Positions 1 through 16,190 of a DNA stretch of 39,027 bases are shown here, piece after piece. Location: positions 1 through 39,027 of the forward strand of contig JAIRZL010000058.1 of the NCBI GenBank assembly GCA_031267245.1, read 5' to 3'. Position numbers and translations under genes: made by a program. The notes beneath the pieces are model-generated. The model was not told the origin of the DNA and did not search any database. It was given only the letters and a program-made list of their open reading frames with translations. The first letter of the stretch is position 1; every line of letters starts with the position of its first letter. The DNA is from Oscillospiraceae bacterium (GTDB lineage: Bacteria; Bacillota; Clostridia; Oscillospirales; Ruminococcaceae).

Positions 1-2
1 TT

Positions 3-1859
3 GTTGGAGTCTTGCGACGAGGCCTAGCTTTGGGTGCAGGAACAACAGAAGGAATCCGGCAGCACTTGGAGCGTTGGCTGGGGGACGTCGGCGTAGCGGG
101 AACATTAGGCGATCGGTGGATGCACTCCTTTGATCTGCATGCGAAGAAAACAGAGCAGGACGTAACGTCGATTTACGCGCGATGCGAAATGGACGCCGAT
201 GAGGTCGGCCTAGACAAGCTTTTTGGCCAGGCTGTGGACGAAGCTGCAGACGCCATTTTTGCCCAGTTCGGTGGATGGTATGAAGACGCGACGGTGGCGG
301 CTGCTGATAGCGGCGACCTCGGGAAAAAGCCTGTCAGGATGGCGGACTGGCAGAAGCGCGTTTGTCAGCCTTCGGCAGCGGCATGGAACACCGTTACGTG
401 GTTGGTGCTACAAACCGTCGGTTGCGTAGGTCAGGCACATTACATGCAGCCGACAAAAAACGTTGATTTGTGCTACCCCGAGTGCTACCCCCTGCCCGAC
501 GGTTACCAGGCCAAAGAGCTTTTATTAAGGTCAGAGCATTTAACGGCTGTTGCGTTCTGGGGCGGTGGCGGCCACGACAAACTAGCAGTAGCTGACGTGC
601 TGGCCCGTTGGGTCGTGAGCAAAATTGCCCCTGGATTGGGAGAGGACGGAGGCGACTTGTTGTTGCAATTGCTGTCCTTGCGCGACGACATGCCGTGCAG
701 CGCCGGCGGCCAAAACGCAATCATAGCCGGCGAAATTTGGGGCGCTGCTGCGCCAGAACTGTGGCTGTTTTTGGGCGAAGCTGTTTTGTGTTTTTTGCAA
801 GCTGTTTCGGAGGCAGGAAGCGCGGGCATAAAAAAGCAGTCGCTTGTGCGCGGCCTCTGCAACTGGGCGTCCCCAGGCGATACAATCGACGAGCGGATGT
901 TGGAGAAAGAGTCCAATTGCTTTGCGCCCCTGGAAAAACCGCCTGGACGCGTCGGGGACTCGGAAAAGCATACGTTGCAATACGCAAAAATCCCACAAGA
1001 CCTAGTCGAAGACGGCATGGCGGGAGAAGCATACGTAGCGGTTTGTGTCATGTTAGATAGGTTGATGGCTGTTTTCACCGGGAGGACGTGGAGTAAAATA
1101 ATCGACGCACCTGGCACAGGAGGTGGCTTTTTTGGAGCACCAGCGCCATTCGCAAAGGAAATAGCAAAAAACGCGGATCCGATTCCAAGAAAATGCGATG
1201 AGTTTTTGTGGCGCGTAAAAAACCTGGTGGAAGTGCTGCCAGCTTTTTGGTTTCCGGCTGATGTTGATGGCGAGGGCGATGGGGCCGAAGCAGCGCCGGC
1301 GGGCGTCCCTCCAGTTGTTGCCGAGCCTGTTTTGGTTCCTGCGGCTGTTCCAGGGTTTGAGCTTTTGCCACCAGAACCGCTGGATTTGCCTATTTTACCG
1401 CCCGTTCTTACCAAGGCACCGCCGGATTTGGCACTGGTACCAGCAAAGGTAGCGTTGGAGTTTTTGGATTTGGCTCGCTTGCCGCGTTTCGTCCAGGGAA
1501 CTGGCGACACACCCATCCAAAGCGATCGTTGGTCAGCGAGCAAAGAAGCTCTGGAGGAAGCGGTTGCTATTTTTAGAGAGAAGACGCTTGCTATCGCTGC
1601 GTTTGCAAACGTGTGCCAAAACCTAACAAGAACAGCGGAGGCGAGGCAGTGGGAGGCGCAAAAAGCGTGGGATGCGATAACGGAACCAGATCAATTGGCC
1701 ATTGCTGCGGAGATATGCTCTGCTGAACAGAGTTTGCAGGCAACCGAGGCAGCGGTTATTTTTCGCCTTCTACATAGCCGGAGAGAGGAAGAGGCCGTGG
1801 GGGACGCCCGTAAGGCAGTAAGAGGTTCTGAGCATGCGACCAGCACAAAAGGAAGCTGA
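3..1859 (+). CDS. Large alanine-rich paralog A, unknown function; 5' end truncated by window edge
   Basis: Frame is open to the window start (bases 3-11 read V-G-V in frame before the annotated TTG at 12). VGVLRRGLALGAGTTEGIRQHLERWL aligns without gaps to internal VGFLRTCMARKLATQQELKTHLESWL of the 845-aa ORF; the C-terminal EPDQLAI...AEQ...AR motif is shared with the other three paralogs. Confidence 0.8.
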   Translation, partial: VGVLRRGLALGAGTTEGIRQHLERWLGDVGVAGTLGDRWMHSFDLHAKKTEQDVTSIYARCEMDADEVGLDKLFGQAVDEAADAIFAQFGGWYEDATVAAADSGDLGKKPVRMADWQKRVCQPSAAAWNTVTWLVLQTVGCVGQAHYMQPTKNVDLCYPECYPLPDGYQAKELLLRSEHLTAVAFWGGGGHDKLAVADVLARWVVSKIAPGLGEDGGDLLLQLLSLRDDMPCSAGGQNAIIAGEIWGAAAPELWLFLGEAVLCFLQAVSEAGSAGIKKQSLVRGLCNWASPGDTIDERMLEKESNCFAPLEKPPGRVGDSEKHTLQYAKIPQDLVEDGMAGEAYVAVCVMLDRLMAVFTGRTWSKIIDAPGTGGGFFGAPAPFAKEIAKNADPIPRKCDEFLWRVKNLVEVLPAFWFPADVDGEGDGAEAAPAGVPPVVAEPVLVPAAVPGFELLPPEPLDLPILPPVLTKAPPDLALVPAKVALEFLDLARLPRFVQGTGDTPIQSDRWSASKEALEEAVAIFREKTLAIAAFANVCQNLTRTAEARQWEAQKAWDAITEPDQLAIAAEICSAEQSLQATEAAVIFRLLHSRREEEAVGDARKAVRGSEHATSTKGS

Positions 1860-2661
1860 AATTGACGCCTGTTTCCCGTTTTTTTGGGGAAGTGCTATTT
1901 TTAGCACGATCGACGCAAAGGGGTCCTTCGTGGCAGGAACGGCGATCGATCGATAAAAGAATTGCAGCAACAAGTTCGGGAGGCCCCCTGCGTTTCGCAC
2001 GTCGGCCAACAACGGCCGAAGGACGCAGAAGCAAAAAAAACAGGGCGATTCTACGCTTCTGCGAGCAGGCACCGCTAACCGGTCCCCTGATGCCGACGAG
2101 CGAAACAGGCGGGGAAGCGACACCATGAGTTTAACAGAGCCGGCCAGGCAAACGAGGCCGAGGAACCAGCACAGCAGAGTCTCCGCCGCTGCGGCACTTT
2201 TCTTTTACAATAGCGTGTGCTTGCTTGCCGTGATTCTCGACATTGGACGCTCCCCACACGGCCATTACTGTTTCTGTGTTCAATCCTGGGCCAGCGGCAG
2301 AAGCTGAAAACCCACACGCAAGGAAGGAACAAGCCACACAAAAGGCCGTAGCCGCCGAACGGCAAGGAGACGAGGATCTTATGGTGGAACAGAACCAGAG
2401 TAAAAAACCTAAAAGTGCGACAGGGTTCGCTGGCCCACCTGTATCAGGCGACAGACCGCTACCGCTATGCAGATTGCTTTATTGCCGCGCAAACTTCGAA
2501 AAGCGGAGGAACACTTTTGGCTGGCGTGCAGGGGCGCTGGGAACGGCAAGGCCCAAACGGCAAAAAGAAAGCGGCTGCGGCCGAGGAACCTTTTTGTGGT
2601 GCCTTTAGTACGTAGCTTGCGTGACGGCAAAACCGCAAGGTGCAGCGCTAAGGATTCCCAT

Positions 2662-2689
2662 TTGCTGGTCGATCATTTAAATGTATGCT
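2662..2689 (+). promoter_or_regulatory. Possible sigma-A-like promoter (TTGCTG-N16-TATGCT) for paralog B
   Basis: TTGCTG at 2662-2667 and TATGCT (preceded by TG) at 2684-2689, about 50 nt upstream of the 2742 start. Confidence 0.35.
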
Positions 2690-2741
2690 GGTACAAACAT
2701 GAATGTGATTTTCAAAGAAGCAAACAAGGAGAAAAACAACA

Positions 2742-5279
2742 ATGGGAACAACTGCTGCCACTCAATTTTGTGCACACCGCAATGACTTGCAAATTCAGCA
2801 CAAAAAGCTCCTAGAGAAAATCACAGATCAATCAGTAGGCAGTCAAATACCACAAGATACCATAGAACGTTTCGAATCAGCGGCCATGCTGGAGCACTGC
2901 GGGGCACAGGCAAAGGAAGCAGAAAAAGCGTCAAGGATGGAAGCAACGCACAAGCAAGCCGCTGAGCTGGCAAGCGATACATCAAGGATGCTGCGGGCCT
3001 TGGCGCTGGAGGCCGAAGCTGCAATGGCAGGTGACCACGCATCAAAGGAGAGAGTCGCAAAAAAAGCAGCGGTCGTGAAGGAAGCAGCCAGCCAGCTACT
3101 CGAAGGCGCTGTAACTGCCCGGGGCACACCGATTCTGGATGCTGTGAGGAACGGTAGTGTTGATGTTTGTGGCATTGATGTCCCATTGGGGATCGATTTG
3201 GACCATAGGTCGGCGAAACCAGCGAAAGCTGCAGCGGGCGCTGCGGCGCCCGCAAACGAAATTGACTATATTATTGCTAACGGAATAGGGATTATTGATG
3301 CAGCGGCAAAACAACCAGACGCAAATTTCGCGTCCGTTCTGAAAGCTGCGCAGGATCTTTTCATGACGGAACCCAACGATGACCTAAGGGCGGCTCTTCA
3401 GGCTCTCATTGGCGACGATATTTTGGGTGCCGTAAATCAACTAGAAAATGGCAAGTTGGAAGCAGCCTGGGGAACCGGCTCTGTGACCTGTTTAGCAGAA
3501 TTTTTGTTTTCTATCATTGAAATGGTTGGGTTCTTGCGAACTTGTATGGCCAGAAAATTAGCAACCCAGCAAGAACTAAAAACACACTTGGAGAGCTGGT
3601 TGTTGACTTCAGCCGCACCAAACGGTTTTGGGGCAGAACAGGCAAAACTAGAAATGAACATAGCCAGTCGGCAAGGGGCGCCAGTGCCCGTATTGCCGGC
3701 GGACGCATATGCTCCGGCAAACTGGCAAGCAGCAGAACCGACGCTGGATGTTTCCGTTGGCGGGATCTTTGACGCGTTCGTGGATCAGGTTTTTAGCTTT
3801 TACACAGCAAGAGACGAGGCTAGTGCCGTGCCACCCGGATCCTGTGTAGGCCTGGGCAGAGCCGCAAGCGTTAGGCTCTCTTCGCCGGAAAGAAAAGGCG
3901 TGAGGCCAGCGATTGCAGGAATCGATGCGTTGATTATTGCTGTTCGCCAATTGACGGAGGCCTTTCCTGAAGAAAACTGGCGCGGGCTTGCTGCTGCGCC
4001 TTCCACACAAACGAGACCAAAAATGGAAACAGCGGCGAGTCGCTGGCAATGGTTTTTAGCAAATGCCACAGACAACTGGACGGACACTTGTCGCTTGCCG
4101 GGCGGAGGAGGAGGCCTTCCTGATTGGGCCACACCGGCCCAGACGTCCTGTAACTTGGTCAATCTGCTCTCTTCGTGTTTAACGGGCAAATTTGGCGAAA
4201 ACGTCCTAAGAATGGCAAACGCCGATGATGGGGCCTTGGTGGGATTCTGCGGTCGAACGGACCCAGACCCAGCGGCCATTACTTTACATTTTTGGGCTGA
4301 CGACAAATTCTTTGCGTGGGTCCGCTATGGCTACGCGTTAATAGATTTTGTGAAAGCGATTTGCGGAGCCGCCATGGCCGGCGTGACAAAAGAGGAATGC
4401 CACACAAATTTCGCAACTTGGTTTTACAAAAGCGAATTTGGCGGTAGGACAGCGTTAGACTCCTTGTATGCAGCGTCCTGTGCCGGCAAATCAACCAGCG
4501 AGCAACGATACGACGGCGTGTACTTCTACGCTGTAGAATCACTGGCTGCCGCTGGTAACGCGCATGACGCCGCGTTTTTTCGTTTGTGTCTTGCTTTGGA
4601 TACGCTCTTGGCTGTGTACAGCAATAGGGTGCTCAACATAGACAGCAACGGCAGCGCCGCAAACGCTGCGAGGCAAGGCTTTGGCCTAGAAACGGCCAAT
4701 CCAGAATGGCCGGTTCTCTGTATACAACCGCGATGGATAGGTTTCGAGAGCTTTAGTTTGTTTGTCCGTCGAGTGATAGACGCCGCCCCGTTCGATGAAT
4801 GGCGGCTGCCTCCTGGCGAAGAATGGGTCGCGCAGGAACTGCCAACGGGCACGCAATCGCTGAGCGAATTGGCGGCAGTCGGGGCGACGGCGAGCACAAC
4901 GGAGCCGTTTTCTCCGCGCTCATTACCAGCTTTTGTTGTGGCGGCCGACGGAACAATAAATGCAGCAGAGTGGCAGGATGCAATCGCCGAATGGCGCGAC
5001 GCAGTGGATTTTTACCGAACGAAAGCTCAACAATGTGGAACCAACGCAGCTTTCGCCAGTTCTGTGTTTTCGCTGGCACACACAAACGCCGTTATTACCA
5101 GCGAAGCATATAGGCACCGTTTTACGCTAGACCCGTTACAAATAGTGGCTCTGATCGCCAATGTAGAGCAGGAGCTACAAAGAAATGACGGGGCATTTAT
5201 TCAACGCTTGGCCGATACCAAACGACAACAGGAGGCAGTGGAACAGACACGGCAAGTTTTGTATCCTGCAGAAAAGTAG
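2742..5279 (+). CDS. Large alanine-rich paralog B (845 aa), unknown function, two tandem modules
   Basis: Long ORF with AAGGAG SD upstream of ATGGGA; collinear with paralog A; C-terminal helical motif DPLQIVALIANVEQELQRNDGAFIQRL...ARQ-like as in paralogs A, C and D. Confidence 0.88.
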   Translation: MGTTAATQFCAHRNDLQIQHKKLLEKITDQSVGSQIPQDTIERFESAAMLEHCGAQAKEAEKASRMEATHKQAAELASDTSRMLRALALEAEAAMAGDHASKERVAKKAAVVKEAASQLLEGAVTARGTPILDAVRNGSVDVCGIDVPLGIDLDHRSAKPAKAAAGAAAPANEIDYIIANGIGIIDAAAKQPDANFASVLKAAQDLFMTEPNDDLRAALQALIGDDILGAVNQLENGKLEAAWGTGSVTCLAEFLFSIIEMVGFLRTCMARKLATQQELKTHLESWLLTSAAPNGFGAEQAKLEMNIASRQGAPVPVLPADAYAPANWQAAEPTLDVSVGGIFDAFVDQVFSFYTARDEASAVPPGSCVGLGRAASVRLSSPERKGVRPAIAGIDALIIAVRQLTEAFPEENWRGLAAAPSTQTRPKMETAASRWQWFLANATDNWTDTCRLPGGGGGLPDWATPAQTSCNLVNLLSSCLTGKFGENVLRMANADDGALVGFCGRTDPDPAAITLHFWADDKFFAWVRYGYALIDFVKAICGAAMAGVTKEECHTNFATWFYKSEFGGRTALDSLYAASCAGKSTSEQRYDGVYFYAVESLAAAGNAHDAAFFRLCLALDTLLAVYSNRVLNIDSNGSAANAARQGFGLETANPEWPVLCIQPRWIGFESFSLFVRRVIDAAPFDEWRLPPGEEWVAQELPTGTQSLSELAAVGATASTTEPFSPRSLPAFVVAADGTINAAEWQDAIAEWRDAVDFYRTKAQQCGTNAAFASSVFSLAHTNAVITSEAYRHRFTLDPLQIVALIANVEQELQRNDGAFIQRLADTKRQQEAVEQTRQVLYPAEK

Positions 5280-5688
5280 CCTACTCAACAAAACGCAAGC
5301 AACAGCCAGGGGGACATGTTGTTTGCTGCATTGGTAGGTTGCTTTTTTGCTTTGTGGGGCGCAAACGCTAAGCAGCTTGTTGCGAAAAGAACGAGCGCGA
5401 TGGTTGCACACGGTGATCCTGCTATGCGACGCTTAATGCTCGGCATCTTCCCGGCGTTTTTTACAGAGAGCAACAGCAAACGGCAACCTGGTCGCTTTTT
5501 GTTGCCTTCTTGTTTCGCCTTTTTTGTAGGAGGGTTGCTGTCACACTTTTTTGCAGTTGTTTTTTATTGCCCAATCGCTCTCTTTTTGAGAAGCCCCTAA
5601 AGTTAACGGCCCAGCGGCCGATTTATTGGGTAGCGAAAAAAGAAACGAGGCGTTATTAAAAAAACAAATAAAAAAGGAGAAAAGAACA

Positions 5689-7239
5689 ATGGGAGCAGGT
5701 GTAACGGACGCAACGAACAAGACGCTACAAATAGCACAGGCAGAACAAAAGGTGGCGAATAGACAGACGCAGACAGGCCGCAGGGAACAAGATCCGGTCC
5801 ACAACCCGGGGGGCTTTGTGCGCGTCCAGCAATTAACCGACCAGCTGACGAACCTAATGGTAGAACACAAATCCTTGGAAGCAGCAAAGGCAACAACGGA
5901 AGATGTTGTGGCGTCAATAAAGGACGCCACAGAACTACTGCGGAAAGCAAAAAACGACCTGCTAGCCGCGGACGGCCAGAACGCGGCTGTGGCAGCAACG
6001 ACAGCCAAAGCAGTCCAGACATCCGTCACGGCCTACAACCTGCTGATGACGAGCGGCCAGACAAGGACAGGGGCAAACGTTTGGGAGGCCGGCAGAGCAA
6101 TAAAATCGGCCGCTGTTTTCGGTAACGAGATACCGTTCGTTTTGCCGGACGCTTCGCGAAACGCGTTTGATTGGACGGCCATAGATACTACCTGGAACGC
6201 TGCAGTGACGGCGGCGAAAGCGGCAACTATAACCACGGGCGCCAACGTGTTTGCGGCGCTCGCCGGGGCCTTACCAGGCGGCGCTGTCCCCATTCTGTCG
6301 AAGTTGAAGGCTGTGGTGACCGCAATGAACGCCCCTAACGGCGCAGAAGGTGGCACAAACGCCATGATGGCGAAGTACTCGGCGGCCGAGGCGCGCGCAT
6401 TTGTGGATTTGTTGGTCGGGTTGTATAACGCCACAAAAGGCTGGGTCTCCAGCACAGGCGCCACGAGCGTTTCTGGCAAAGCACTGATTAAGCGCGTGGT
6501 GGGCGTGCCAGGGAGTGGGGGAGTTTGTGAAATCGTCAAAGGCGGTGCCAACGCCGGTAACACCGGTGTCCTTAGCGCTGCCGTTTACTCGCATGGAGGT
6601 GGCTTTGTGTTGGACGACCCGTTCGGCACAACGAAAGCGGATGTATTGCCTTTCGCGTTGGCTATAGACAAAGTTTATATGCAGTTCCTGGGCAGGGCAA
6701 CTCCCCCCGACGCTTCGTTGGCGGCGTCTGGTTTGGGAGCGCAGGCCGCCGCCGTAGCGAACGCCGGAACTGACCAGACTCACATGCCGAAGGACGCGAC
6801 AATACAAGCAGTGGCGATTAGCTTTGCAGGTCTACTGGATGATGTTGACTTTGTCGCCACCGCAACGGGTGTGGTGGCCCCCCCAGTCGTTGTTCCTCCG
6901 TTCACTGCCGCCGGCGGCGCGGTTTTAAGCGGAGCTGCGCTAAAAGCCGCATTATTGCCGCTGACACAGCAAATAGATAAGTTGCAAAACAGCACTGTCG
7001 CTTGCGCACAAATGGCCGTGTTTTTAGACCAGCTGGCCACGTCTGTTACTTCGGCAGCGAAAACGGTGCAGGAAGGGCTCGCACAAATAGAGCAGATAGA
7101 GCCCCTAGAGGCTGTTAGGGCCGAAGGAGAGGCGACACAGAGGGTGGACATGGCCCGAGGTGCGCTGATAAGCCTACTGTCTCAGCAAACAAAAGCAGGC
7201 GAAAGTGCGCAAGAAGCCAGAAGGATTCTGGCGCGTTGA
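5689..7239 (+). CDS. Large alanine-rich paralog C (start moved to ATG at 5689, MGAGVTDATN...), one module
   Basis: AAAAAGGAGAAAAGAACA-ATGGGA gives a good SD and matches the leader of paralog B; the 21 residues before it in the ORF track contain the SD itself. C-terminal EPLEAVRAEGEATQRVDMARGALISLL...EARRILAR. Confidence 0.86.
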   Translation: MGAGVTDATNKTLQIAQAEQKVANRQTQTGRREQDPVHNPGGFVRVQQLTDQLTNLMVEHKSLEAAKATTEDVVASIKDATELLRKAKNDLLAADGQNAAVAATTAKAVQTSVTAYNLLMTSGQTRTGANVWEAGRAIKSAAVFGNEIPFVLPDASRNAFDWTAIDTTWNAAVTAAKAATITTGANVFAALAGALPGGAVPILSKLKAVVTAMNAPNGAEGGTNAMMAKYSAAEARAFVDLLVGLYNATKGWVSSTGATSVSGKALIKRVVGVPGSGGVCEIVKGGANAGNTGVLSAAVYSHGGGFVLDDPFGTTKADVLPFALAIDKVYMQFLGRATPPDASLAASGLGAQAAAVANAGTDQTHMPKDATIQAVAISFAGLLDDVDFVATATGVVAPPVVVPPFTAAGGAVLSGAALKAALLPLTQQIDKLQNSTVACAQMAVFLDQLATSVTSAAKTVQEGLAQIEQIEPLEAVRAEGEATQRVDMARGALISLLSQQTKAGESAQEARRILAR

Positions 7240-7290
7240 AGCGAGGCAGATAAAGTTGTTATGTCGTGTTCCTACGTGTTTGTGTCGAAA

Positions 7291-7314
7291 AACCCAGATG
7301 GCGCCTTCTGGGTT
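7291..7314. other. Inverted repeat downstream of paralog C
   Basis: AACCCAGA-TGGCGCCT-TCTGGGTT; 8-bp perfect arms, no following T-run, so terminator function is uncertain. Confidence 0.4.
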
Positions 7315-7626
7315 GGGGGCAGTAGACCACCGGAGCCGCTCTGGCGTGCAGCGCGGATTACAGGTCCGATGACTGTGATTGGTGCTTCTGCGCCAGCCAG
7401 CTGGTCGTTTTCGCTTTTCATTGCAGTGAAAAGCAAGCACGGCCAGGCAACAGCAAACGCACGTAGGACGGTCGGATGGAGCGGTGCGCGAAAGCCACGA
7501 ACGACGATAGAGACATTGCTGTCGTTTGCTGTTGCTTGTGAGGCCGTCTGCGGAACGGCTTTTGCCAGCGAGCGGCTACAGATTTTATGTTCTTTTTGTC
7601 ACCGGAACGCTGAAGGAGGACGAGCT

Positions 7627-9244
7627 CTTGGTTGGCGTGCAGATCTTTGCGGAAAATGGACTATGGCAACAGCAGCGAAAGTCGCTGGCTGGGGCACAAC
7701 AAAAGTTTTTCGCTGCTGTTGCTCGTAGCGACCGCAGCGATGGGAGAGCAGAGCTAACCGGCAAGTCAGCAACAAACGCACAAAAGGAACAACAACGGGA
7801 AGTTCTGGCGACCGCAGAAAGGAATCACCGCTTATCGGAACGTTGTGTTGAGCTGTGCGGGCTGGGTAAACAATACATGCGTCAAATACAAGCGCTCCTG
7901 CAAGAGGCGGAAGCTATAGCTTTAACCGCTGCGGCTGCGGCGCCGGCTGTGGTGGCGCGGGCACAAAAGAAAGTAGATGAAAACGTTGCGCTCGTTAACT
8001 TGTTGTTACGCGAGGCGCAAACGGAGGAAGGTGTGCGTGTCGTTGAAGCAATGCCAGAACAAAAGGTGTGTTTTTGTGACCAGGAAATACCAATGGACGT
8101 GCCGTTTGATTTGGGCGACCATCAGTTGCAATGCGAAACCCGCGGCACGTTGGCGGTGGCGCTGAAGGAGCTAACAGCAACGGCATCAGCGGCTGGTGCC
8201 ACATCAGATGATGTTTTGGCAACTGGCCGCGATTTGTGTTCGCGGATGACAGATACAAATTTGGGCGCGCGTATCAGCTGGTTTCTTTCCGACACCGGTT
8301 TTTTGGCGGCACAGCGACAAAATGGGGGAATCTGTTCCGTTTTAACAGGCGCATCAGCGGCGCAAACGTTCGTCCTCGTGTGCGTCCTTTTTGAGCTAGC
8401 GACAGCTGTTTATGAGGCCGCCTGCGACGCAACTATGACATCGACACTGTTAGTTACGACAATAAGGGCGGTGATGCCGGGTATCTCGAGAAGCAATTCT
8501 CAAGCGAAAGCGGCGTTTGACCAGGTGAGGGCCCACAGTGACTATCGTCACACCACGCCCCTACTGACAGGTTATCAAGATCCGGTTTCGGGAAAAAGCG
8601 TTTTGGTTAATTCTACGTTGCCGATTGCGCCGGCCACATATGAAAAGCTCTGCCTGGCAGCGGATAAAGCAACGCTCACTTTGTTGGGTTTTGAGTATGG
8701 ACCCGCTGTAGCTTGGCCAACAGAGGTTCTTACTCTCGGTGTGCCGGCGTGGGACCTCCCCGGCGCGGGCGCACCGCCGCCCAATTTATTCCTTAGTCAG
8801 AACGGCATTACGCAGTCGGTGTATGCCATGCGCGAGTTCGCGACAGGGATAAGCGTGCAAGAGGCGAAGGAAGCGGCTGGGCGAGGCTTTTTGCTAGAAT
8901 CCCCAAAACTGAGCAGCGCTGCGGGAGTCGCCCTCAAAAAGACAGAATTGGTGGTAAGACTAAAGAAGCTTGCTGGGGCGCGGCAACGGGCCTGCTTGCG
9001 AACGGTAGAGTACGCGACAGCAGAAGCGATCGCAAAATCGCTAGTAAATTTGGAGCAGGAGAGAACTTTTTTTTTGCGGAGGCAGCTTGCTCTTTTAGAG
9101 CCTGATGAGTTGGCGCGGATCGGGGAACAAATGTGCCTCGCCGATGAGGTGTCGCGTATAACGGGAGCCATAACCACACAATTGGTTTTTTGTGCACGAG
9201 ACAGTGAGATCCTGGAAGAAGCAAGGCGCAAAGCGCGGGGATAA
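7627..9244 (+). CDS. Large alanine-rich paralog D (ORF 7526..9244; possible start TTG near 7627), one module
   Basis: GGAGG 8 nt before in-frame TTG (LVGVQIFAENG...); C-terminal LLEPDELARIGEQMCLADEVSRITGAITTQL...EEARRKARG matches the other paralogs. The true start is uncertain and may be upstream. Confidence 0.75.
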
Positions 9245-9262
9245 GAGGCCTACGCAAAAACA

Positions 9263-9298
9263 CACAAAGAAGCAAGCCAAAAGGCTTGCTTCTTTGTG
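9263..9298. terminator. Bidirectional-type hairpin between convergent genes
   Basis: Perfect 16-bp inverted repeat CACAAAGAAGCAAGCC-AAAA-GGCTTGCTTCTTTGTG. Confidence 0.75.
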
Positions 9299-9323
9299 CA
9301 AGAAAAGGTAGAGACGGGGACCA

Positions 9324-10313
9324 TCATGTTTCTGTTGGTTCTTCTGCCCGGGTTTGCAACCAATTCACCAGAGCATCCCGGCAGTGGTCAAAAACGTTAT
9401 CCAGGATACGAAGGCCCTGCAATGCTACGTAGTTTTGCAAATTGGAACCTGATGCAATGGCCTCGCGAACAATTGAGAGGGCCTTTTTATAAGCGTGAAT
9501 AAAATCCGCGCAGGCAGCAGCTAACGACGGGGCAGCGGCTGTGACAACGAGCGAAGGCACTCCAAAACGCTGACAAGTATCCCCGCACGCGATAATAGCT
9601 TCTACCAGAGCGCTTTTTAAGTTTTCTGCGTTTTCCGGCAGAAGCACGCCAAGAATCGCATCTCGCCCCTCCGGGGGTACGCGAGAAAGAATAGAAGCCG
9701 TGCAACTAACGAGCGCGGTTCTTGTTGTCTGATCGCCAACATACTGCAGCAGGTCGCTGTTTTGCCTTGTTGCAATAGCAAACTCCGTGTTCGGCTTGAA
9801 GGAAACGAGTATTGTTCCAGTCGTCTGCTCCAGCGGTATTTCTACGGTGTTTGTGTCGGTAAACTTGTACTCCTGCTCCGCGGCGATAACGGAATCGGCG
9901 CGATACGCATCCGACGGCGAAGCCTCAATCCGTAAATGATTTGCCATCCAGTTCCACGTAACGCTGCCGAGACCTTTTATAACTATATCCGGCGGCGCGG
10001 GTGTATCAGACGCGGGCAAAAACACAACGGAAATGGGGAACTCCTCGGCCGTTTTCGGCAAGGTCACTTTTCCCTCATCCTCCGGATAATACGCAACGCC
10101 ATTAAATGCCACAAAACCGGGCAGAAACCCAACAGACGGGAGCAACTGGAAAACATAGCCGTCATCTAACTCTTCACAATCAACCGTCCCTTTGCCACTA
10201 AACGCAACTTCCAAATGCGAAGGAATAGGCGCAGCATAAACAGGGCTCCGCACCACAACAGTTGCCGCAACAACAAAGGCCACCGCCAAAATCTTTAGTC
10301 TCCATTTCCTCAT
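9324..10313 (-). CDS. Secreted protein of unknown function (start moved to ATG at 10313, MRKWRLKILAVAFVVAATVVVRSPVYAAP...)
   Basis: GGGAGG SD just upstream of ATG; n-region/hydrophobic core/AxA-type signal peptide; beta-rich then helical mature region. Confidence 0.82.
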   Translation of the reverse strand: MRKWRLKILAVAFVVAATVVVRSPVYAAPIPSHLEVAFSGKGTVDCEELDDGYVFQLLPSVGFLPGFVAFNGVAYYPEDEGKVTLPKTAEEFPISVVFLPASDTPAPPDIVIKGLGSVTWNWMANHLRIEASPSDAYRADSVIAAEQEYKFTDTNTVEIPLEQTTGTILVSFKPNTEFAIATRQNSDLLQYVGDQTTRTALVSCTASILSRVPPEGRDAILGVLLPENAENLKSALVEAIIACGDTCQRFGVPSLVVTAAAPSLAAACADFIHAYKKALSIVREAIASGSNLQNYVALQGLRILDNVFDHCRDALVNWLQTRAEEPTET

Positions 10314-10390
10314 AATATACCTCCCACTTTTTCTTAATGCCTCGGCGCCCGTAAACAATCAAGGCAGCCGCAATGCAACATATCTATCTC

Positions 10391-10420
10391 ATTATAACAA
10401 ACTTACGCCTATTTTTGCAA
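10391..10420 (-). promoter_or_regulatory. Sigma-A-like promoter of the secreted-protein gene
   Basis: On the minus strand TTGCAA-N18-TATAAT. Confidence 0.65.
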
Positions 10421-10551
10421 CACTTTTTAATTATTTTTTCTAATTGTTGCGTCGTGGCAGTAAAAAAGCGGCGGGGAGTCCGGTTCTGAAGTAGAGCGCT
10501 AGCACAGGACAGAACCTGGACAACACGCACGCAGTCAGTAAACGGCTACAC

Positions 10552-10584
10552 GGCAGCTCCTCGATGGTGCCGGTTTCTACCAAG
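10552..10584. repeat. 33-bp direct repeat, copy 1
   Basis: GGCAGCTCCTCGATGGTGCCGGTTTCTACCAAG, identical to 11007-11039. Confidence 0.9.
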
Positions 10585-10779
10585 TTAGGAACGCAAACGA
10601 AAAAGGAGGGCATGCTCCGCTCCAGGAGTCACCGCCGTGTTATTGGTTTTCCGGCGCCGGCAAACGGAGCAAATAACAGAAACAACGCCGGCAGCAAACA
10701 AGTGGTCGATCGCTTTGGTTACCAGCACCGTGTTTCTGTCACCCAGGGCCACAGCGTTAACCAGCAGGAAGCAACGAGA

Positions 10780-10813
10780 AGCGCGGCTCCAAAACCGTGA
10801 TTTGGGAAACAAT
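10780..10813. repeat. 34-bp direct repeat, copy 1
   Basis: AGCGCGGCTCCAAAACCGTGATTTGGGAAACAAT, identical to 11073-11106. Confidence 0.9.
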
Positions 10814-11006
10814 AGGCGGAGGCAGGGCGAAAAAAAGGAACACACAGCTTCTTGGCGCCTGCCGCCACCTGGCTACCTCCGCTGCCGCCCAGCGAGAGCA
10901 TACTCTCCTGTGGGACCCAAGCGAGTTCCCCGATTGCTAACGCCGGCAGCAAAGCTAACCCAAAAAACCAAGCACCCAGCGGCCGCACCAAAAAAAAGGG
11001 GTTTAA

Positions 11007-11130
11007 GGCAGCTCCTCGATGGTGCCGGTTTCTACCAAGGCGGGAAGGGGCAACCAGAAAGAATCAACGCGCAGCGCGGCTCCAAAACCGTGATTTGGGA
11101 AACAATTTGCGTAGGAAGTGCGAAAAGAAC
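11007..11130. repeat. About 125-bp repeat unit containing both exact repeats
   Basis: Contains the 33-bp and 34-bp repeats 66 bp apart; diverged collinear copy at about 11583-11706. Confidence 0.8.
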
Positions 11131-11582
11131 CAAAGCAAAACAGCGCATCTTTTGCGCAGCAGCACCAACGGCACAAGCTAAACGCACCAAGAGCGCCGAT
11201 GCCTCACGATGGGCCCTGCCGGTGTTCCTTTATTAACGACTAATGCAAAAAAAGCAACAAAGACGACATAAAAAGAGCGCCAGCAAAAAAGTGGCCTCGT
11301 CAACCCCCAGCCCAGCCGCTGACGATGGTTCTTTGGGGGAACGGGACAAAAAGGGAAGAATCAGGCGAAGAAAAGAGACAAGAATCAGAAAGAGAGCAGC
11401 AAGGTCGGCAGAAACAAAAAAAAGAGGCCATCCATTGCTGTGTTGACAAAACGGTAACAACGACCCGGGCCCAACAGCCCAGCACCGGTAGATGTTGGGC
11501 GGCTGGTCGCGCTGCTTACAGCCGCTAGCGAACAACGCAACGAAAACGCGAAGCTGGTTGCTCAGCAAAAAAGCGGGCCACG

Positions 11583-11706
11583 GCAGTCCATCGCTGGTGT
11601 GCTTTTCTACCACGCGAGGGGAAGCCACAACCAGAAAGAAAAACCGCGCAGCGGAGCAACAAGCCAGTGATCAGGGGGAACAATTTGCGTAGGGAGCGCG
11701 AAAAAA
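11583..11706. repeat. Diverged copy of the about 125-bp unit
   Basis: GGCAGTCCATCGCTGGTG...TTTCTACCACGCG...CAACCAGAAAGAAAAACCGCGCAGCGG...GGAACAATTTGCGTAGGGAGCGCGAAAA parallels 11007-11130. Confidence 0.65.
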
Positions 11707-12255
11707 ACAACAGGGCATCGCTGGACAGATCTACACAAATGGGATTGGGGAAGACTGGCTTCCATCACAACGCGGGAAGTTAAGTAAAGAAAAGAGCGGC
11801 CACGGCAGCCACTCGCTGGTGACTGCTTGTGTCACGCTGGCACGGCACAAACTAGTAAGAAGCCAAACAGACAACGCGCGAACAATGTTCTTTTTCGCAC
11901 AGTGCCGTCACGGAAGTAACAAAAGCCTGTCGGGTATCCCATAGGGTTATAGGGTTAGGAAGGACCAGACCTGCCACCTATCCGTCTATAGCCGCGCGCT
12001 GGGGGCAAAAGAAAGTAACCTACACAAAAGCACAATAAGGAATTACAAACCAAATAGGGCAGCACAAAACCTAAGAGTATCGCAAACAGAATCGTGCAGC
12101 GTTTTCAACGTTAGCAAACAAGAAAACAATTTAATTGCTGCCCAAGCCAATGGCAACTAACTATGACCCATCGCATCCACAAGGCTGATACTTCTGGCCG
12201 AAGCTTTGCATTGAAGCCCCCGCAAAAATAAAGTAACTGGCAAAAAGCAAAAAAG

Positions 12256-12293
12256 AATGCGCAGGTAGGGCTTCATGCCCTTGCCTGCGCATT
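12256..12293 (-). terminator. Rho-independent terminator of the GG-leader peptide gene
   Basis: Minus strand reads AATGCGCAGGCAAGGGCATGAAGCCCTACCTGCGCATT followed by CTTTTTTGCTTTTTG. Confidence 0.75.
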
Positions 12294-12367
12294 TACAAAC
12301 CTCGTTTTACTATTCTTTTGCCCCCAGCTTTGCTTTTCGCAAAACCAGAACGCTGGCGGCCTCCTAT

Positions 12368-12595
12368 TTACTTTCCCTTGTACGGGGCGGAGATTGCCTT
12401 CAGGTCACGGCCGTTGTTGGTACTTGCTCTATATGCGGCGTCCCTTGCCGCGCTCCCCCCCTGATGCTTTGGGGGACCGCCGGTCTGCGCCTGCAAAACT
12501 TGTGCAGTGATCTTAACAAGTAACGACGGATAAGTACCTCCATTCGCCACAAACAATTCCTCATCTGCCAATTCTAGAAAATTGCCATAACTCAT
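12368..12595 (-). CDS. Putative double-glycine-leader peptide (75 aa; bacteriocin/secreted-peptide-like)
   Basis: MSYGNFLELADEELFVANGG|TYPSLLVKITAQVLQ...: fits LSxxELxxIxGG with L-12, E-8, L-7, G-2, G-1; AGGAAGG SD region upstream; own promoter and terminator. Confidence 0.65.
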   Translation of the reverse strand: MSYGNFLELADEELFVANGGTYPSLLVKITAQVLQAQTGGPPKHQGGSAARDAAYRASTNNGRDLKAISAPYKGK

Positions 12596-12631
12596 CCTTT
12601 ACCATTCCTTCCTTAAATTACTTCCGCCAAC

Positions 12632-12661
12632 ATTATATTACGCAACCAGCTCACTTGGCAA
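12632..12661 (-). promoter_or_regulatory. Sigma-A-like promoter of the GG-leader peptide
   Basis: Minus strand TTGCCA-N18-TATAAT, about 40 nt upstream of the start codon. Confidence 0.6.
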
Positions 12662-13918
12662 TATGTACACTTTAACAGTTGTTTTGTTGCAGAATCTGCA
12701 ATGTTTACCAGGCCATCGCCCCTCAGCGTGACATAAAATTGACATGTTTCTGCATTTTTGGCACACAATTGATGTCGGTGTGACTTTATGCAGCGAAGAC
12801 CTAGTAAAGAGCACCACAAATTCACATGCTGAAAAAGAAGAGGAAGTCTGAAAACTTTAGAGATCACACGAAAAAGCGGCGGACGCAGAGGCAGAGGAAT
12901 TTACAGATACAACAAATAGCACAAGCCGCAGCCGTTTTTTGAGCGCAGTTGAATAATCCTCGCGTTGGGGGAAGCAGACAAAAGGTGGCGGAGGGTAACG
13001 CGAAAGCAAGCCAGACATGAGAGAAGATAGCGGGTCTGGGCGACGAGAGAAACGAAGGCTCTACAACTAAAGAACCAAAGCAGCAGTGGGAAAGCGATAG
13101 TACCTGGCGCATGCATTGCCGAGGAAAACGGCAATCGGCAACAAGCAAAAAGATGGCTCACAAAACCGCAAAAAAGGCATGGAGTCGCCCGATAACCCCG
13201 CCAAATTGCAGAATGGTCGTCGTGCGCTACCACTCTGCAGCGTAGGCAACGGGAATGCCGGCTGATGGATGTGCAAAAAAAGCAGCCGCTCGGCCTAACC
13301 AAAAGAAAAGAAAGCTTACTGGTTACCACCGGAAAGCAACGGAAATGCCGCAAGAAGACAAACAGAGAACCCTCACTACCCACACAGTCATCGCGAATTC
13401 CAGGGGAATTAAGGCGCCAAGTAAAAACTGCTGGTCGGATACTAAGAAGCCGGCAGGACTTGTGGCACTGTGTGAAAGACAGACTCGATGAGCATATCTT
13501 TTGCTTTTGTAGCAAACGCTTGCCAACGTAAGCAGCTCCTAAAAAACGCAGATCCCAACAGCGTGGGGTGTGCCGGCAGCTCGGAACGTGAAACCGACGG
13601 CGACTAGGGGGTCAGCGACGGAAGCAAGGAGTAACGGCGCTGGGCGTTTTGAGGGCTCTGAACTGCGGGAAAGAGGGAGTGCTGGTGTTCCCACAGACCT
13701 TGGTTCCGCCTACTCTATGCCCTGACAATTACTGCTCGTTTTGGCCGTTTGCAAAAAATTATTCAGCAAAAAAATAAACTACAAAAAGACTCTCAGATGA
13801 TGGAATCCTTCCAGTGCCAGAAATCTTGCTCTTGAAGAGAATTATGGGTGCAGGCCACTGAGTGGCAGCCAAATTTGATGCTCAAAGCAGGGGCTCTTTT
13901 GGCATAAGCAGCCGCTGA

Positions 13919-14128
13919 GCCAATCAGGCAGCACTGACCCGCGATCCACTGAAAGAATTGCTGGCGCTGATTATTAATCTGTATGAGCGGCCCCAAAAAG
14001 CCATCAAAAGGGACACAATTCCAAAAGACGAAGGATCCCCGCCTGCCGTTTTGCCGCTGGCGAACCGGATTGCGGCAGAGCTTGCTTTTTCGTGTTGCAG
14101 TAAGAAGCGCAACTTTCTCAGCCGTTGA
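13919..14128 (+). pseudogene. Possible remnant of a phage head-tail connector (gp6-like)
   Basis: Open frame ANQAALTRDPLKELLALIINLYERPQKAIKRDTIPKDEGSPPAVLPLANRIAAELAF...*, with no start codon and an in-frame TGA just upstream; resembles the IKQAxLLLVxxWYExRE...LP... pattern by eye. Confidence 0.3.
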
Positions 14129-14166: not shown

Positions 14167-15156
14167 GTGAAAGAAGGCTATGTTGTTAAAGATGCGGGAA
14201 AACATTCAGATGACCTGGCGTTAATAAACAAATATACCCGGCGCCCATTGAAAGATGCTGAGGTTTATATCTTTAACCTAGTCCTTTGCGACAACGACCT
14301 GGATCGCGACTTTGAATGCTTCAGTCGAGAAGCGTTAATTGGTTTGCAGAAGCTATTTTTGGGCAAAACAGGGATATTTGATCATGAGCACAAAGGAACA
14401 AATCAAATGGCAAGAATATTTGCAACCGAAGTTGCTTGCAACCAAGAAAAAACCACTCATTCCGGAGAAGAGTACCATATGCTAACGGCAAAAGCATATA
14501 TGGTCCGGAGCGAAAAAAATCAAGATTTAATTCTGGAAATCGACGGCGGGATAAAGAAAGAAGTTAGTATCGGGTGCAACATTGCCAGCTGCTTGTGCTC
14601 AATTTGCGGGACCGACTTAAAAAATGGGAGATGCAACCACACAAAGGGCAAGCAATACGTAAAAAACGGACGTTCCACCCTTTGTTACAGGATTTTAACC
14701 AATCCCATAGATGCGTATGAATGGTCGTTTGTTGCGGTGCCCGCGCAAAAACATGCTGGGGTAGTCAAAGGAATCGGGCAACAAAACACAGCGGCAAATA
14801 CCAAACCAATAGATTGCAACATACAGGAATTCAGAACCAAACTTAAGTCGCTCGGCGCCAACGGAGCGCATCTCTCAAAGAGCTGCTTACGCGAGATTCA
14901 ACTTGCGCTTGAAGAACTTGATGAACTTAAGATCACCATGAAGGATTTCAAAGAAGAACTAATTCGTCAAGTTGAATGTTCATATGCGTTATCGCAACCG
15001 CAACTGAGCCTTACAACCATCAAAAGTATTGTCTCTAAGATGAGTTCCAGCGAATTGCAAGAATTTAAAAAGGCAAATGCTTATACATCAAACATTCAAA
15101 CCAAGCCCCAAACCACAAGAAACAAAACATTTAACCATAAAAGTTTTGAAGTTTAG
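14167..15156 (+). CDS. HK97-type prohead protease with C-terminal helical extension (GTG start)
   Basis: AAGGAAGGAGG SD before GTG; LVLCDNDLDRDFECFSREAL...GIFDHEHKG..., KKEVSIGCNIASCLCSICG...CNHTKGKQY, DAYEWSFVAVPAQKHAGV typical of phage prohead protease-like proteins. Confidence 0.82.
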   Translation: MKEGYVVKDAGKHSDDLALINKYTRRPLKDAEVYIFNLVLCDNDLDRDFECFSREALIGLQKLFLGKTGIFDHEHKGTNQMARIFATEVACNQEKTTHSGEEYHMLTAKAYMVRSEKNQDLILEIDGGIKKEVSIGCNIASCLCSICGTDLKNGRCNHTKGKQYVKNGRSTLCYRILTNPIDAYEWSFVAVPAQKHAGVVKGIGQQNTAANTKPIDCNIQEFRTKLKSLGANGAHLSKSCLREIQLALEELDELKITMKDFKEELIRQVECSYALSQPQLSLTTIKSIVSKMSSSELQEFKKANAYTSNIQTKPQTTRNKTFNHKSFEV

Positions 15157-15185
15157 GCGAATCGGAGGAAAGGGAAGATAAACAT

Positions 15186-16190
15186 ATGGATTGTTATAAA
15201 AATGTCGTTTTAGATAAAAACATGTATAAAATTGCCGGTAAAAGCTTTTCTGAGATCTTGGAGGAGATAGATTCCTCGCAAAGTTACGCCGGCGAGTTTT
15301 CCAACCTAGATGCTTATCAACGCCAACTAAAACGCTTTGACATCAAGGTGAGTGATATAAATGCCGATTGCATTGAAAAATTCTTCAGAACGGCACAAAC
15401 CGCAACATTATTCCCTGAATATGTGCACCGCGCCGTTAAAGCTGGTGCGGCTAGTGTTAAAATATTGGACGATATCTTGGCCGTTAAAACGCAGATTGAC
15501 GGTGTGGACTACAGAACTATTTACTGTGATGCGGACGCGAAACAACCGGAACAAACAACAGAAGGCGCAGAAATTCCCAGCGTGAACGTACGCCTGAAAG
15601 AAAACTTGGTAAAACTAACAAAGGCAGGCCAAATGCTAGTGGCCAGCTACGAATCGATCAGAAACCAAAAAATTGAACTTTTTAGCATCATTTTGAAACA
15701 GGTTGGAGCCAAGCTTGCACAGCAGCAGTTGAAGGGCGCGATCGAAACCCTGTTGGCCGGAGATGGCACCATTGAACCAGAGATCAAAAACATAGAAAGT
15801 GCGCTGGAATTTGAACAGCTGATTGATCTTTGGAGCAGCTTTGATGAATACAAAATGAACACCATTTTAGTTTCGCCAGAGATGATGCGCAAACTGCTTA
15901 GCTTACAAGAAATTTTGGATGCAAAGAGCGGATTTAAATTTGAAATTAATGGCGAGATTGCCACGCTACTTGGTGCAAAACTTATTAGATCCCGTTTTGT
16001 TCCAAAGGATACAATTATTGCTCTAGACAAACGATATGCGCTAGAGATGGTTAGCCAGGGCGACATAATTGTGGAACACGACAAGCTTATTGATAAGCAA
16101 CTGGAGCGAGCAGCAATCACTTCCACATTCGGGTTCGCAAGAATCTGCAAACCTGCCGTTAAAATCCTTAAATATGATCTTAAAGAATAA
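15186..16190 (+). CDS. Phage major capsid protein (HK97 fold)
   Basis: TATLFPEYVHRAVKAGAAS...TQIDGVDYRTIY...EGAEIPSVNVRLKENLVKLTKAGQMLVASYESIRNQKIELFSIILKQVGAKLAQQQ...LLAGDG; directly downstream of the protease. Confidence 0.85.
   Translation: MDCYKNVVLDKNMYKIAGKSFSEILEEIDSSQSYAGEFSNLDAYQRQLKRFDIKVSDINADCIEKFFRTAQTATLFPEYVHRAVKAGAASVKILDDILAVKTQIDGVDYRTIYCDADAKQPEQTTEGAEIPSVNVRLKENLVKLTKAGQMLVASYESIRNQKIELFSIILKQVGAKLAQQQLKGAIETLLAGDGTIEPEIKNIESALEFEQLIDLWSSFDEYKMNTILVSPEMMRKLLSLQEILDAKSGFKFEINGEIATLLGAKLIRSRFVPKDTIIALDKRYALEMVSQGDIIVEHDKLIDKQLERAAITSTFGFARICKPAVKILKYDLKE

Follow-up and report, generated by a model that had tools for sequence, protein, structure and literature searches.

Four tandem genes of a reduced Oscillospiraceae genome as probable, extremely divergent flagellins

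Canonical flagellins of the FliC/Hag type (PF00669 plus PF00700) carry a hypervariable centre between ends that are described as conserved within and between species and as diverging like core genes (PMC7018530). The centre may be greatly enlarged, as in the giant flagellins of Bermanella and Oleibacter, which exceed 1000 amino acids (aa), keep recognisable D0/D1 domains and have duplicated extension domains in the surface region (PMC6248924), or in the enzymatic flagellins known as flagellinolysins (PMC5595980). Here we describe four large plus-strand open reading frames (ORFs), A to D, that lie in tandem at positions 3-9244 of a 39,027-nucleotide stretch of an Oscillospiraceae bacterium genome (GCA_031267245.1, contig JAIRZL010000058.1; our contig C54, hereafter the window). 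A first-pass annotation had placed them at these positions as divergent paralogues of an unrecognised family; judging from sequence, we consider it very probable that they are extremely divergent flagellins.

Each of these systems resembles the locus in part. Like canonical flagellins, A-D have related ends around a hypervariable centre and, at C, a predicted promoter of the same type, and export without a signal peptide would be common to both; however, their end domains are ~4-17% identical to canonical ones and match no model, whereas two canonical flagellins of related genera are 51-55% identical in the same regions. Identity with the flagellins of related reduced genomes is ~10-19%. The relatives compared, those of G001 (L062:9692-10624), G003 (L063:10131-11036) and G114 (in L024, - strand), share with A-D related helical N- and C-terminal domains and the absence of an apparent signal peptide, and with C the exact sigma-28 box, but they are single, short (~290-310 aa) and almost without a centre, whereas A-D are four and have large centres; those of G001 and G003, moreover, are still matched by flagellin models of NCBIfam and of Pfam (E = 5e-10 and 3e-16), which A-D are not. 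A and B recall the giant flagellins in their large, presumably surface-forming region with an apparent internal duplication, but B, the largest complete protein (A is incomplete), has 845 aa, no known domain matches the centres, and D0/D1 themselves have diverged. The enlarged central region is also a feature of flagellinolysin, although a library scan found no peptidase or other enzyme domain in A-D.

That the four ORFs are strongly diverged tandem paralogues, as first proposed from a C-terminal motif readable by eye, is borne out by shuffle tests and by leave-one-out profiles. A and B are similar over their full length (p ~ 1.5e-14); C-terminal domains pair as A-B (1e-7), B-C (4e-7) and A-D (2e-5), and N-terminal domains as C-D (5e-5) and B-D (1e-4), while the remaining pairs, such as C-D in the C-terminus, are joined only via a third member. 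When one sequence at a time was left out, N-terminal profiles recovered C (8e-5), D (4e-7) and, weakly, B (0.32), and C-terminal profiles recovered A (7e-8), B (5e-4) and C (5e-4), though not D. The motif marks a domain common to all four, but is incomplete as a description of the family, since an N-terminal domain is likewise common to B, C and D, and a long middle to A and B. Identity among the four in the end domains is 15-28%. Their middles (~240 aa in C and D, ~500-560 aa in A and B) are another matter: unlike the ends, those of C, D and A/B have no mutual similarity that shuffle tests can detect. The middle of B appears to comprise two copies of one module, B1 and B2 (p ~ 1e-3), and an internal duplication is possible for A and B alike. 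By these comparisons A-D are one paralogous family in tandem. In keeping with what was first noted, no signal peptide is apparent in any member, and the family appears restricted: searches of the rest of the genome, of three congeners and of the other members of a sample of 398 whole genomes of the same taxonomic family gave no further copy.

A-D have no match in Pfam, PHROGs or NCBIfam, but to call the family unrecognised is very probably wrong: its end profiles, a bridging test and a promoter box point to a divergent flagellin lineage. Profiles of the ends were searched against the 398 genomes, with E-values quoted per genome, and against a local set of 650 ORFs, which is not a random sample because its loci had been chosen around flagellar or flanking genes. 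The best non-self match of the N-terminal profile of C and D was the flagellin of the congener G003 (2.8e-5, or ~0.011 over all 398), followed at 5e-4 and worse by coiled-coil and other proteins; in the local set flagellin scored 4e-6 against 0.44 for the next ORF. For the C-terminal profile of A-D it was the flagellin of G114, another reduced genome, where a 316-aa frame reads as flagellin (6.5e-4, or ~0.26 over all 398), the sole other match being a 95-aa frame with stops (0.009); locally, the profile of A, B and C gave flagellin 9e-6 against 0.36 for the next. Both matches pair N-terminus with N-terminus and C-terminus with C-terminus, and we read them as homology to ND0/ND1 and CD1/CD0, respectively. 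Reversed and column-shuffled decoy profiles reached 1e-3 to 1e-2 at best, and then to non-flagellin proteins. Bridging, in which the C-terminus of B was combined with the G114 flagellin, improved the E-value of ORF C from 0.92 to 9e-7, against 0.0057 at best for random real windows and 23 for a shuffled flagellin. The further N-terminal matches that were inspected, in G021, G147, G093, G249 and G358, were rejected as spurious frames or as proteins of coiled-coil and other kinds. Since neither end's E-value is proof alone, the case draws on both ends, on the promoter and on the genomic setting.

The promoter pattern TAAAGTT-N13-YCGAT was derived from the regions upstream of the G001 and G003 flagellins and of C, and its only exact match in the window lies before C (5598-5622), with none in 100 shuffles. 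The fetched DNA, ~495 kb with overlaps included, has seven distinct exact sites, all upstream of flagellin starts, C being counted among these: G001, G003, G114, C and three canonical flagellins from the same taxonomic family (L028, L039 and L040). C is thus part of the derivation, while the sites of G114, L028, L039 and L040 are independent of it; the box in L067 is the G003 site, in a fetched stretch that ends before the gene. Loose scans allowing two mismatches are at chance overall, so only the exact box was used as evidence. We predict that C is transcribed from a sigma-28 promoter; the region upstream of A lies off the contig.

The source genome (G000; 874 kb in 61 contigs, ~89% complete, with congeners of 0.7-0.8 Mb) carries flagellar export and motor genes. 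Contig C58 encodes FlhA (1e-238), FlhB, FliI, FliK, the switch proteins FliM and FliN/Y, a protein of FlgF/G type and a FliA-like sigma factor, and FliP and FliR were identified by eye in the flagellar cluster. No Flagellin_N (PF00669) match was found in this ~89% complete assembly even at E = 1, although with ~11% of the genome missing an ordinary flagellin could be unassembled; two of the three congeners do have such a match. In G001 and G003 yebC precedes the flagellin gene, and the orthologous locus of the source genome was considered as a site for one, but yebC is there followed by dut and murF, with no flagellin. The congener G002 has FlhA, and neither a Flagellin_N match nor a match to the A-D profiles; it may have lost flagellin or possess a second cryptic one. 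Congeneric proteins in the FlgK, FlgL and FliD positions (L064:7709-12168, L065:8366-12950) are strongly diverged and weakly or not recognised, that in the FliD position of L064 having no NCBIfam match, and for this reason the whole distal flagellum may be evolving fast.

Several results weigh against identifying A-D as flagellins. No flagellin model in Pfam or NCBIfam matches them, and a flagellin-only hidden Markov model fails to find them. In hhalign comparisons, built on only three or four sequences, the C-terminus scored a modest 0.004 against flagellin and the N-terminus 0.03, not above decoys (0.025 when reversed). In N-terminal bridging with D and G003 one shuffled control scored better. 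The candidate boxes before B and D, with two or three mismatches, are no better than chance alone, and the N-terminus of A is missing because the start of the contig cuts the gene. Profile searches of the PDB returned no flagellin; AlphaFold models from single-sequence or four-row input had a predicted local distance difference test score (pLDDT) of 41-43, and Foldseek found no match with these low-confidence models. The low-pLDDT model of D does have a flagellin-like order of helices, with three N-terminal helices, a strand pair and two long C-terminal helices. Since A-D do not match PF00669 or PF00700 above the curated cut-off they are formally outside the flagellin family, and what we propose for them is divergent homology and like function, not formal membership.

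The coordinates of the array are collected in Table 1. ATG 5689 is most likely the start of C, rather than TTG 5626, since it follows a leader common to B and C; for D, TTG 7628, which has AAGGAGG eight bases 5' of it, is most likely preferable to TTG 7526. The inverted repeat downstream of D is likely a terminator.

Table 1. Features of the A-D array (positions in the window)
Feature	Position	Strand	Description or basis
ORF A	3..1859	+	Probable divergent flagellin, at least 618 aa, 5'-open; two-module middle and C-terminal domain
C-terminal (CD1/CD0-like) domain of A	1476..1856	+	Alignment, shuffle tests
Weak candidate box of sigma-28 type before B	2649..2675	+	2-3 mismatches, at chance alone
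Ribosome-binding site of B	2726..2731	+	AAGGAG; sequence
ORF B	2742..5279	+	Probable divergent flagellin, large (845 aa), with an apparent duplication of the middle
N-terminal (ND0/ND1-like) domain of B	2742..3236	+	Shuffle tests, profiles
C-terminal (CD1/CD0-like) domain of B	4920..5276	+	Alignment, profiles, bridging test
Predicted promoter box of sigma-28 (FliA/SigD) type before C	5598..5624	+	TAAAGTTAACGGCCCAGCGGCCGATTT; exact pattern match
Ribosome-binding site of C	5674..5679	+	AAGGAG, leader same as that of B (AAGGAGAAAA..ACAATGGGA); sequence
ORF C	5689..7239	+	Probable divergent flagellin, 516 aa from revised start
C-terminal (CD1/CD0-like) domain of C	6889..7236	+	Alignment, identity comparison, bridging test
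Possible -35 half of sigma-28 box upstream of D	7251..7275	+	TAAAGTT, poor -10 half; at chance alone
Ribosome-binding site of D	7613..7619	+	AAGGAGG; sequence
ORF D	7628..9244	+	Probable divergent flagellin, 538 aa from revised TTG start
C-terminal domain of D	8894..9241	+	Alignment, shuffle tests
15-bp perfect inverted repeat, 4-nt loop	9264..9297	.	Between convergent D and - strand ORF 9324-10358

This layout bears on an explanation that is compatible with flagellin homology, namely that A-D, though of flagellin ancestry, are now decaying or evolving under relaxed selection as the genome shrinks, and that the flagellum has ceased to make a working filament. Nearly all consensus residues are gone from the end domains, the intergenic DNA at 1860-2741 and 10.4-14.1 kb looks decayed and the genome is only 0.87 Mb. 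Neutral decay would not, however, be expected to leave four long intact frames of up to 845 codons, in which the GC content by codon position is typical of coding sequence, together with good ribosome-binding sites and, before C, an exact promoter box, and we regard this account as distinctly unlikely.

We think it very unlikely that A-D are instead other axial or exported flagellar proteins, such as FlgK/FlgL, the cap FliD or the hook, or other export substrates. FlgL has flagellin-type ends in common with flagellin, sigma-28 drives genes of hook-associated type in other bacteria, and the congeneric counterparts of these proteins have diverged strongly too. Flagellins are nevertheless the best match at both ends: the A-D profiles score them at 4e-6 to 4e-4, against 0.44 at best for congeneric FlgL, at least 2.4 for FlgK and at least 0.4 for the FlgL, FlgK and FliD-position proteins as a set. 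All exact sigma-28 boxes in the fetched DNA precede flagellins, and flagellin genes commonly stand in several tandem copies, which is not usual for genes of hook-associated proteins. The view nearest to the earlier reading, of a lineage-specific coiled-coil family whose likeness to flagellin is a bias of helical composition, draws on the moderate direct statistics and on coiled-coil proteins as next-best matches (~5e-4 to 5e-3), but is scarcely credible when two separate ends each rank flagellins first and in register, as decoys and shuffles do not, and when the bridging control and a promoter box confined to sites before flagellins count against it.

The product of the minus-strand ORF convergent to D (9324-10358; MRKWRLKILAVAFVVAAT...) is an orphan that probably carries a Sec signal peptide and has no match in the congeners, Pfam or PHROGs. 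A neighbouring gene encodes a DUF5711 protein. A stretch of ~3.7 kb (10400-14100) is without convincing genes, purine-rich on the plus strand and contains degenerate 50-80 nt repeats at spacings of ~293 and 577 nt, which is probably decayed sequence. Two phage-type genes stand alone on the plus strand (14167-16190). One encodes a phrog_16951 protein (3e-89) that also resembles head maturation proteases more weakly, the other a major head protein (phrog_3922, 2e-82); no further phage gene was recognised around the pair, which may be a prophage remnant or a domesticated shell protein. The nearby capsid gene led us to consider phage structural proteins as candidates for A-D, but this was rejected, since they have no notable PHROG match and B has none in phage records or viral contigs. 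The guanine-plus-cytosine (GC) content is 49-57% in positions 1-14000 and ~42-50% in the remainder of the window. Elsewhere in the genome (L069:4118-5710, contig C18) lies a gene for a TLC-type ATP/ADP translocase (PF03219, 1e-151), which suggests an intracellular, energy-parasitic lifestyle. Such translocases are a trait of endosymbiotic, putatively energy-parasitic Clostridia with small genomes in termite-gut protists (Takahashi et al., PMC10579323), although the GC content of the window as a whole (~42-57%) is higher than the 30-39% reported for that clade.

In proposing how such genes might work as flagellins, we suppose that the flagellar sigma factor would transcribe A-D, and that the proteins would be exported without a signal peptide by the flagellar type III system. 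Their end helices would then assemble into one or more filaments, with the large central domains forming the surface, which may serve contact with a host or the surroundings instead of, or besides, swimming. The four copies probably arose by local duplication followed by divergence, and the larger centres of A and B apparently by internal duplication, as in some giant flagellins. A bolder version, which we hold to be rather doubtful, is that the four flagellins, their D0/D1 interfaces being mutually incompatible, form filaments that are separate or segmented, or else a surface structure for host contact and not for motility, in a bacterium that is probably host-dependent and reduced in genome; if true, the polymerisation core of the filament, conserved elsewhere, would have been rewritten. 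If A-D are indeed flagellins, the ends of four intact copies have changed beyond recognition and the promoter has stayed canonical. Standard annotation may then miss flagella in reduced genomes and misjudge their apparent loss, and A-D would be a natural test of how far the interface of a filament can change and remain compatible with assembly.

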